From: Lachnospiraceae bacterium
Lineage (GTDB): Bacteria > Bacillota > Clostridia > Lachnospirales > Lachnospiraceae
Length of the DNA stretch: 45,222 nucleotides
Assembly (NCBI GenBank): GCA_024684215.1
Contig: JAIKXH010000039.1
Coordinates: 1-45,222 of the forward strand
Direction: 5' to 3'
The position numbers were made by a program, and so were the translations under genes. Below the pieces are notes generated by a model that saw nothing but the letters and a program-made list of their open reading frames with translations, was not told the DNA's origin and made no database searches. Positions 2,809-5,379 of the stretch are shown piece after piece. Within the stretch, counting starts at the first letter, position 1. Every line of letters begins with the position of its first letter.

Positions 2809-2831
2809 ATATTTGATTAGTATTTACAATA

Positions 2832-3049
2832 GCCGAGTGCGCGTATGATAGTTTTTTTAAACGATTTAGCGAAGCGATTTGTGTAAGTTCTTTGCGAAAT
2901 CGCGTTGTCTCGTGCGATGTTTGAGTAGCTCGCACAGATATAGTGCGAGCGTTACGAGTTGCACGAGACCGATTTTGTACTTAGCAAAGAACTGAAACAA
3001 ATGTTAAGCGAAGCGATTAGTGTAAAAAACTATCATATGTGTGCTTGGC
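2832..3049 (+). repeat. 218-bp long-hairpin palindromic element between parE and parC
   Basis: This almost self-complementary block fills the 330-base gap between the two topoisomerase genes. The outer stem pairs 2832-2857 with 3024-3049: 26 consecutive pairs, of which five are G-U. Inner stems pair 2886-2895 with 2984-2993 (10 perfect), 2897-2902 with 2970-2975, 2908-2915 with 2961-2968 (8 perfect) and 2928-2935 with 2943-2950 (8 perfect, 7-base loop). Both arms also carry a direct repeat around AGCGAAGCGATT (about 2868 and 3007). There is no open frame of note and no strong T-tract, so it is not an ordinary terminator. It could be a REP/MITE-like palindrome or a structured RNA in the parE-parC transcript. 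Confidence 0.75.
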
Positions 3050-3078
3050 ATGGTAAATGATAATAATAGAGTAATACA

Positions 3079-3138: not shown

Positions 3139-5379
3139 ATGAGTATGGAAGACCGTATCATTAAAACAGAATATTCCGAGGAAATGCAAAAGTCCTTTGT
3201 GGACTATGCCATGAGCGTTATCGTAGCAAGAGCACTTCCCGATGTCAGGGACGGACTTAAGCCGGTTCAAAGAAGAGTGCTGTATGATATGAGTGAGCTC
3301 GGCATCAAGTGGGATAAGCCTTACAGAAAAAGTGCCCGTATAGTCGGCGATACAATGGGTAAATATCACCCTCACGGTGACTCGTCCATTTATGATTCGC
3401 TTGTTGTTATGGCTCAGGATTTCAAAAAGGGACTTCCACTTGTTGACGGACACGGTAACTTTGGAAATATCGAAGGCGACGGCGCCGCTGCAATGCGTTA
3501 TACCGAAGCCAGACTTCAAAAGATAACTCAGGAAGCTTTTCTTTCCGACCTCGATAAAGATATTGTTGATTTTGTACCTAACTTCGATGAAACCGAAAAA
3601 GAGCCTTCGGTTCTCCCTGTAAAGATTCCAAATATCCTTGTTAACGGCTCAGAGGGTATAGCCGTAGGTATGGCTACAAATATACCTCCTCACAATTTGG
3701 GTGAGGTTATAGAGGCTACTAAGGCCTATATGCGCGATGAGAACATTTCTACAAAGGAACTCATGAAGCATATAAAAGGTCCCGATTTCCCCACCGGCGG
3801 AATCGTTATTAACAAAGACGAGCTTTTGGATATATACGAAACCGGCGCAGGTAAGATCAAGCTTCGCGGTAAGGTTGAAATCGAAAAAGCAAAAGGCGGA
3901 CATATTAACGTCGTCATCACCGAGATCCCTTATACTATGATCGGTGTCAATATTTCAAAGTTTTTATCTGATGTTGCGGCACTTTCCGAGACTAAAAAGA
4001 CTCAGGATATCGTTGATATTTCAAACCAGTCTTCAAAAGAGGGTATTCGAATTGTTATTGAGCTTCGCAAAGATGCCGATGCAGACAATTTTGTTAACCT
4101 TCTTTACAAAAAGACTCACTTAGAAGATACTTTCGGTGTTAACATGCTGGCCATCAGTGACGGCAGACCTGAAATCATGGGTCTTAAGGAAATAATCAAG
4201 GCCTGTGTTGATTTCCAATTTGAGGTTAATACCCGTAAATACAATAATCTTCTCGAACATGAAAAGGAAAAGAAGGAAGTTCAGGAAGGGCTTATCAAAG
4301 CCGTAAATGTAATTGACCTGATAATCGAGATTTTAAGAGGGTCAAAAGACAGACAGATGGCAAAAGATTGTCTTATGACCGGCAAGACCGACGGTATAGG
4401 TTTTAAGTCTAAAGAATCCAAGATAATGGCGAGCCAGCTTATGTTTACGGAGCGTCAGGCTAATGCAATTCTTGAAATGAGATTGTATAAATTGATCGGT
4501 CTTGAACTTGAAGCTCTTATCAAAGAGCATGATCAGACCATGTCAAATATCTACAAGTATGAAGATATTTTGGACAGAAGAGATTCTATGGCGACTGTTA
4601 TAATGCAGGAGCTTGACAGCATTAAAAAGGAATTCGGAAAGGCACGTAAAACCGTTATCGAAAACGGTGAAGAGGCTGTTTATAAGGAAAAAGAGTTTGA
4701 GGTAATGGATGTTTATTATCTTATGGACAGATTCGGCTATGCTAAGCTTATAGATAAAGCCACATACGAGAGAAATGTCGAAGCGTGTGAGAGCGAATTC
4801 AGATATTGCTTTACCGTAAAAAACAACGGACGTGTAGCAATGTTTACCGAAGACGGTCAGATGCATGTAATAAAAGCCTTAGACCTTCCTATGTCTAAGC
4901 TTAGAGATAAGGGTACTCCCGTAGACAATGTCACCAATTACAAAACAGAAGACGGCAATATAGTTTATGTTTGCAATATGGATGAAATGGTTTTGGGAAG
5001 GCTTTTATTCGCTACAAAAGGCGGACTTGTTAAGCTTGTGCAGGGACTTGAATTTGAAACGACCAGAAAGACCATTGCATCGACAAAGCTTGGTGACAAA
5101 GACGAAGTATGCGCGGTTATTCCTGTTACAGATGAGAAAAACATTATTCTAAAATCAAGAAACGGATATTTCCTTAGATTCCAGATTGAAGAGATATCAA
5201 CTTTAAAGAAGGTATCTCAGGGTGTCAGAGCTATGAAACTCGATGCAAAGGATAATGTTGAAGAAGTTTACATTACACATGCTCAGGACGATAAAGCAAT
5301 TGATCACAACGGTCATAGCATTGTTCTTAACACAATAAAGCTTCAAAAGCGTGATGCAAAGGGAACAAAAATAAAATAA
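3139..5379 (+). CDS. parC: Type IIA DNA topoisomerase subunit A (topoisomerase IV ParC-like)
   Basis: This is the DNA cleavage and religation subunit. The winged-helix domain has the motif HPHGDSSIYD, with serine kept at the usual quinolone-resistance position, and the catalytic tyrosine is in AAMRYTEARL (Y121 from the start chosen here). A tower and coiled-coil region follows, then a beta-pinwheel C-terminal domain from about residue 500. The GyrA box QRRGGKG, needed for gyrase-type wrapping, is missing where it would be expected near TYERNVEACESEF, which favours a ParC-like role. I chose ATG 3139 because the sequence TGAGGA lies just upstream; a TTG twelve bases earlier would place that ribosome binding site inside the gene. 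The length of 746 residues is short of typical GyrA (about 800-870). Confidence 0.85.
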   Translation: MSMEDRIIKTEYSEEMQKSFVDYAMSVIVARALPDVRDGLKPVQRRVLYDMSELGIKWDKPYRKSARIVGDTMGKYHPHGDSSIYDSLVVMAQDFKKGLPLVDGHGNFGNIEGDGAAAMRYTEARLQKITQEAFLSDLDKDIVDFVPNFDETEKEPSVLPVKIPNILVNGSEGIAVGMATNIPPHNLGEVIEATKAYMRDENISTKELMKHIKGPDFPTGGIVINKDELLDIYETGAGKIKLRGKVEIEKAKGGHINVVITEIPYTMIGVNISKFLSDVAALSETKKTQDIVDISNQSSKEGIRIVIELRKDADADNFVNLLYKKTHLEDTFGVNMLAISDGRPEIMGLKEIIKACVDFQFEVNTRKYNNLLEHEKEKKEVQEGLIKAVNVIDLIIEILRGSKDRQMAKDCLMTGKTDGIGFKSKESKIMASQLMFTERQANAILEMRLYKLIGLELEALIKEHDQTMSNIYKYEDILDRRDSMATVIMQELDSIKKEFGKARKTVIENGEEAVYKEKEFEVMDVYYLMDRFGYAKLIDKATYERNVEACESEFRYCFTVKNNGRVAMFTEDGQMHVIKALDLPMSKLRDKGTPVDNVTNYKTEDGNIVYVCNMDEMVLGRLLFATKGGLVKLVQGLEFETTRKTIASTKLGDKDEVCAVIPVTDEKNIILKSRNGYFLRFQIEEISTLKKVSQGVRAMKLDAKDNVEEVYITHAQDDKAIDHNGHSIVLNTIKLQKRDAKGTKIK

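Follow-up and report, generated by a model that had tools for sequence, protein, structure and literature searches.

The DNA analysed here (the window; 45,222 nt) is contig C128 of the 2.79-Mb genome of a Lachnospiraceae bacterium, and it carries a long hairpin between two topoisomerase genes. All mismatches of the outer stem become wobble pairs when one strand is read as RNA, and the original prediction offered three readings: a mobile palindromic repeat, an RNase III substrate setting the parE:parC ratio, or a structured RNA. We asked which of these the hairpin is, and which molecule its folding serves.

Structure of the parE-parC hairpin

The hairpin lies between a parE-type topoisomerase subunit gene (889-2808, + strand) and a parC-type gene, also on the + strand, whose ORF is listed from 3127, with a likely ATG at 3139, and ends at 5379; both genes were named from sequence, not by family search. 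No ORF of at least 100 aa covered positions 2832-3049. The outer stem was as first described, with 26 pairs between the 5' arm (2832-2857) and the 3' arm (3024-3049), 81% of them Watson-Crick. The five exceptions (2835/3046, 2838/3043, 2839/3042, 2841/3040 and 2843/3038) were all G-U on the + strand, with 2838/3043 reading U-G. In the predicted fold, the stem reached slightly further, to about 2821-3059: within the 5' extension (2820-2831, GTATTTAC..), positions 2821-2827 and 2829-2830 paired with 3050-3059 in the 3' extension (3050-3060, ATGGTAAATGA). Compared by eye, these two extensions are the likely counterparts of the end motifs ..GTnAC(A)GG and CCGTnACTnAG, respectively, of other copies.

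Inside the outer stem, the direct repeat AGCGAAGCGATT was found as predicted at 2868-2879 and 3007-3018. It was followed by two inner stems, GTTCTTTGC (2887-2895) with GCAAAGAAC (2984-2992) and GTCTCGTGC (2907-2915) with its 3' side at 2961-2969, and by a tandem G.A motif, conserved in the family described below, in which TGAGTA (2922-2927) lies opposite TACGAG (2953-2958). The predicted apical hairpin (2928-2950) was recovered, with 8 bp (2928-2935/2943-2950) and a 7-nt loop. All these features are given on the + strand.

Each strand folded far below its dinucleotide shuffles. RNA folding of 2820-3060 gave -106 kcal/mol on the + strand versus -61.9 ± 4.3 kcal/mol in 200 shuffles, none of which was as low (z -10.4), and -72 versus -40.2 ± 4.1 kcal/mol on the - strand (z -7.8). 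In a scan of the contig corrected for G+C (240-nt windows, 60-nt steps), the hairpin was the strongest fold outlier, at -7.2 sd on the + strand; the next non-overlapping outliers reached -2.4 sd on the + strand and -3.1 sd on the - strand.

A hairpin family restricted to one genus

A BLAST search of the host genome returned, besides the full copy, two shorter relatives, which had the loop sequence in common and arms that were different yet complementary. By eye, the short copies resembled a full element that had lost the segment flanked by the AGCGAAGCGATT repeats, and we infer that they are internal-deletion remnants. With a covariance model built from 15 copies (E <= 0.01), 71 matches were found in 14 of the 31 genomes of the host genus, four of them in the host, and none in the other 17. 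The possibility of a multicopy palindromic repeat, raised at the outset, was thus borne out. The elements measured roughly 220-280 bp.

Outside the genus, an exact core pattern was run against 84,980 species, each represented by a single genome. It returned 39 stretches, all in Lachnospiraceae MAGs and each on a contig equal in length to a genus contig already known; a scan of this kind misses diverged copies. The family model R1, applied with stricter filters to 392 genomes of the order, gave no convincing carrier beyond the host; the single match in another genus was weak (61 nt, E 3.7e-4) and was taken as chance. Neither the hairpin in the window nor eight family loci had a relevant Rfam match, and no description of this hairpin family was found in the open-access literature (PMC). 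Its members are small, non-coding hairpins dispersed between genes in rumen Lachnospiraceae, with no counterpart in the RNA-family library. MITEs and palindromic small mobile repeats are defined in PMC10969869, in its passage on such elements, as non-coding, multicopy, shorter than 500 bp and bounded by inverted repeats, all of which holds here, given the size, the 71 matches and the hairpin arms.

Several copies carried additional features. Compared by eye, copies of two species (L103 and L104 in G013, L094 in G005) had an accessory hairpin (ATGCTTCTTGA..TCAAG..GATAGC) at an identical position within the element, and another apical insert was common to copies of G014, G041 and G005. Copies of G009 and G013 had a conserved 3' tail (about TTAGTAAGTTAAACTnCAATTT) after the hairpin and repeated DNA upstream, so the repeated unit may exceed the hairpin in these two genomes. 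A hammerhead-like CUGAUGAG loop was considered and rejected by eye, since the loop differs among copies. A phage or plasmid origin was also considered and rejected; one copy had no match in PLSDB or INPHARED, and the core pattern had none in viral contigs.

Covariation and arm complementarity

Compensatory changes, which the original prediction expected of a structured repeat family, were found in 17 of the 33 core pairs predicted by RNAalifold in 20 of the 71 copies, picked for like architecture and aligned by sequence alone. In this alignment, 95.4% of the cells paired, and 81 cells were changed on both sides, versus 28.5 ± 3.9 in shuffles (none of 500 as high); a control with slid partners gave at most 13 double-sided changes. 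In helix 4, which corresponds to the 2907-2915 stem, five of the six pairs were changed on both sides.

The outer arms lie outside this 33-pair structure. Their sequence varied from copy to copy, with complementarity kept: the mean pairing score was 18.6 for a copy's own arms versus 6.4 for arms swapped between copies, and own outer arms beat all swaps in 42 out of 63 copies and reached at least the 95th percentile in 61. For the inner arm halves, own arms beat all swaps in 11 copies and were at the 95th percentile in 36 out of 63, a weaker advantage that is expected because the sequence is conserved there. Arms also changed faster than cores. Two copies of G013 (on C32 and C115), for example, had identical matched cores and different arms, with one paired change in common.

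Strand-specific selection

To read the wobble pairs across the family, arms were aligned on Watson-Crick matches alone, which puts G-T and A-C on an equal footing as mismatches. Over 65 copies, the + strand of the element showed 116 G-U against 25 A-C (80 other mismatches), with more G-U than A-C in 49 copies and fewer in seven. After hand removal of 16 near-duplicate or same-site copies, the counts were 85:19 in 48 copies. The excess was found in inner stems (56:7), beside the core (24:2) and in the middle of the arms (73:11), and was weaker low down, at 37:22 in the lowest arm zone and 26:14 beyond it. Looser windows gave lower ratios (164:60 with 90-nt windows, 235:105 over whole hairpins), because loops and chance flanks dilute the signal.

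Two other measures addressed the same strand. The + strand folded better than the - strand in 62 out of 63 copies with RNA parameters and in 61 with DNA parameters, versus 66 out of 121 in flanking DNA used as a control. The tandem G.A motif, YGAGYA/YRCGAG, was present on the + strand in 58 out of 65 copies and as its reverse complement in none; a second tandem G.A motif, CTTAGYRAG/CGAGCTTAG, was present in 27 out of 65.

The five wobble pairs at parE-parC had been attributed to selection on an RNA transcribed together with these genes. Selection on plus-strand pairing was upheld. Co-transcription was not, since the G-U to A-C counts were 40:7 in copies sense to their neighbours and also 34:11 in copies antisense to both neighbours. 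An excess in both orientations is poorly explained by read-through mRNA or by a mutation bias tied to host transcription, and suggests that what folds is the + strand of the element itself, as a single strand. One particular strand thus seems to have retained its capacity to fold, irrespective of the element's orientation. The best reading of these patterns is a working form consisting of the single plus strand, as ssDNA or RNA.

Genomic sites and turnover

Among the 71 copies, orientation relative to the neighbouring ORFs was -- in 21, ++ in 18, -+ in 7 and +- in 4; the other 21 were at contig edges. Hence, 39 of the 50 copies with both neighbours visible sat between co-directional genes.

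The parE-parC gap was readable in 27 genus loci, two further loci being cut by contig ends. In 24 of the 27, it measured 9-61 nt, too short for the element; in the host it holds the full copy, and the gaps of 108 nt (G041) and 132 nt (G006) resembled remnants by eye. Filled and empty versions of this site therefore coexist in the genus, and a device dedicated to the parE:parC ratio, as first suggested, is not supported, given the absence of the element from these 24 gaps. In G013, a copy was located beside the end of parE in the opposite orientation.

Two other junctions, whose gene names were likewise read from sequence rather than from a family search, showed how variable such sites are. At rfbB-rfbA, the G006 and G014 copies, whose cores were 99% identical, pointed in opposite directions with respect to the genes and had arms of different sequence. 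At pgk-tpiA, 16 of the 19 genus junctions tried were readable. This family occupied six of them, in one direction in G044, G007, G015 and G010 and in the other in G020 and G006. Clostridiales-1 RNA (RF01699) was present in three (G043, G014 and G009), and another significant hairpin in two: that of G041 matched the sister pattern described below, and that of G000 was alike by eye. The remaining five held short hairpins or remnants (three junctions) or 16-18 nt (two junctions), so that this site, too, was seen both empty (16 nt in G012, 18 nt in G040) and filled (251-315 nt with a family element). The pgk-tpiA flanks of G007 and G044 were 95-96% identical; the G015 element was nearly identical to that of G044 (core 0.98), and that of G007 differed from it (core 0.77, lower arms 0.41-0.45). 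At this junction, G002 (L234) had, by eye, the outer palindrome of the G020 element (L236) without its core, which may represent a deletion or a pre-insertion state.

The nearest relative by core was in the same genome for 27 out of 63 copies, versus 5.4 in shuffled sets (maximum 14). Such relatedness, together with inverted copies and different elements at one junction, suggests that elements arise, amplify, invert and replace one another. Several junctions held copies in two or more species, and in some of these the arms had undergone paired changes (by eye, on C95 of G000 and C27 of G014), a pattern that resembles lasting retention through selection. Host-level selection or an insertion hot spot would also give shared junction copies, vertical descent and repeated insertion not being separable everywhere. 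On the flanks that were read by eye, copy ends were fuzzy, and no target-site duplication or clean end was defined.

Search for a mobilising partner

Two candidate partners were set aside after comparison of carriers and non-carriers among these incomplete MAGs, as neither tracked the element: Y1_Tnp, the Y1 transposase domain, was detected in six of the 14 carriers and three of the 17 non-carriers, and RVT_1 in three and four of them, respectively. Y1_Tnp was thus present in 9 of the 31 genomes and was not found in eight carriers (G000, G021, G009, G022, G020, G010, G007 and G015). BLAST searches of seven copy-rich genomes returned copies known from the model, some of which matched in the core alone, and contig-edge pieces, with no half-copy away from a contig edge. 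At four loci, the genes between or beside neighbouring copies were also inspected as candidates; by eye they looked like housekeeping genes (ilvB/ilvD/leuB-, flhA/flhB- and groEL-like), along with an ATPase-like 404-aa gene.

Interpretation of the hairpin family

On balance, we consider it probable that the parE-parC hairpin is a full-length copy of a genus-restricted, non-coding hairpin family that is mobile, or was recently or formerly so, that works through its folded plus strand and that inserts at gene junctions. Counting against this reading are the failure of Y1_Tnp and RVT_1 to track the element, the ends and target duplications that could not be defined, the copies found at one junction in several species, and the weaker G-U excess in looser windows and in the lowest arm zone. 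The family is multicopy, folds in a strand-specific manner and lies in either orientation, and its sites display presence or absence and different elements at one junction. In the mechanism that we propose, the plus strand would work in single-stranded, folded form, as an intermediate that is most likely ssDNA but may be RNA, and a protein would recognise it through the conserved core, with its tandem G.A motif and apical hairpin. The folded form would then insert at gene junctions, often ones that already have a hairpin, and loss would occur by deletion between short direct repeats. The parE-parC copy would be one such insertion, and any effect on parE/parC mRNA a by-product.

An alternative that we regard as possible, if rather unlikely, is a dispersed family of structured non-coding RNA genes, in which every copy would express its plus strand as a trans-acting RNA, as Rfam supposes for Clostridiales-1 RNA. 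Plus-strand selection independent of the neighbours, the strong covariation, a tandem G.A motif that is conserved solely on the + strand and the accessory hairpins at fixed positions (by eye) are all consistent with it, and RF01699 is likewise multicopy in the genus. However, upstream promoter scores showed no significant excess over mirrored 3' flanks (60 copies, simple consensus scoring, Wilcoxon p = 0.085), no 5' flank was conserved beyond the arms (64 copies), and 17 of the 31 genus genomes had no match. Because no promoter was seen and the sites are indifferent to orientation, ssDNA appears slightly more plausible than RNA as the plus-strand form, a weak preference.

It is less probable still that the hairpin sets the ratio of neighbouring proteins in cis, by giving the operon mRNA an RNase III site or by stabilising it, the role originally put forward for parE:parC. 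The predominance of copies between co-directional genes would suit this role. So would the pgk-tpiA site, where 11 of the 16 readable junctions hold a long hairpin, as if one were useful there; these hairpins belong to two kinds at the least and probably to three. Yet the G-U bias did not follow the mRNA strand, as an RNase III substrate should, copies were inverted at one and the same junction, and most readable parE-parC gaps lack the element. Template-switch correction of quasi-palindromes keeps their arms complementary, and a passive DNA palindrome (a MITE relic) maintained in this way, without single-strand selection, would fit arms that change faster than cores (as in the G013 pair on C32 and C115, with its one shared paired change), but we consider it very improbable, since such correction should be strand-symmetric and yield neither the 116:25 excess of G-U over A-C nor a tandem G.A motif conserved on the + strand.

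The family is a bacterial case of a non-coding repeat in which strand-specific selection on folding is independent of host transcripts. This strand specificity makes the choice between ssDNA, RNA and a host function directly testable.

Comparison with known systems

The family resembles palindromic small mobile repeats. It is set apart from YPAL, NEMIS and REPINs by description only, and Clostridiales-1 RNA is the closest to it in host and sites.

YPAL (RU-2) elements of Yersinia are palindromic intergenic repeats of about 168 bp with target duplications of 3-26 bp (PMC2229807). As in the present family, filled and empty sites occur, and YPAL targets span or adjoin dyad symmetry. Besides the different host, the passages of that paper devoted to YPAL mention no strand-specific covariation or variable complementary arms, and they report target duplications, whereas none was defined for the Lachnospiraceae element. 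The Correia/NEMIS element of Neisseria is an intergenic stem-loop MITE with transcripts that are proposed RNase III substrates; as characterised in the same source, it is shorter (about 107 and 155 bp), and the selection on the Lachnospiraceae element is, in contrast, independent of mRNA direction. REPINs, which are associated with RAYT (TnpA_REP) transposases, are described in PMC3116915 and PMC8266576 as non-autonomous extragenic hairpins thought to move via folded ssDNA, TnpA_REP acting on single-stranded REP. Unlike the REP doublet outlined there, the present element has a conserved core and variable arms, and Y1 was not found in 8 of its 14 carriers.

The genus also contained a sister family of hairpins, recognised by the motif CTTAGYGA..GAGYTTAGTnCCGC, which had 35 matches in 12 of the 31 genomes (L243, L252, L253 and others); the reversed control pattern had none.

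Clostridiales-1 RNA (RF01699; Weinberg et al. 2010, PMC2864571) is an element of Clostridiales that is typed 'Gene; sRNA' in Rfam. Like the present family, it is structured, dispersed and multicopy, and it occupies the same pgk-tpiA junction in three genomes. Its sequence and structure are different: R1 did not match these three junctions, and RF01699 had no match at the Rfam gathering cut-off in the window or in the eight family loci. Within the genus, 28 of the 31 genomes had an RF01699 match at E <= 0.001, 25 of them above the Rfam cut-off, whereas none of 14 control genomes did. Counts at E <= 0.001 reached 27 in G011, with 22 in G003 and 7 in the host (4 above the cut-off). With so many copies, it looks more like a dispersed element than like a single gene. 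In three species, the second topoisomerase gene (gyrA/parC-type) had RF01699 adjoining its start (G000:C20:13239-13413, G014:C25:144853-145027 and G005:C111:33460-33634), so hairpin elements can occur at either kind of topoisomerase junction.

A broader and doubtful proposal is that this family, the sister family with its CTTAGCGA/GAGCTTAG motif and Clostridiales-1 RNA would all move as a folded plus strand, as ssDNA or as RNA with reverse transcription, through one shared machinery targeting junctions that hold hairpins, so that the elements replace and invert one another. If so, the 'sRNA' of Rfam would be a mobile element. More generally, Clostridiales-1, a catalogued 'sRNA', may be the same kind of dispersed element as the hairpin at parE-parC.
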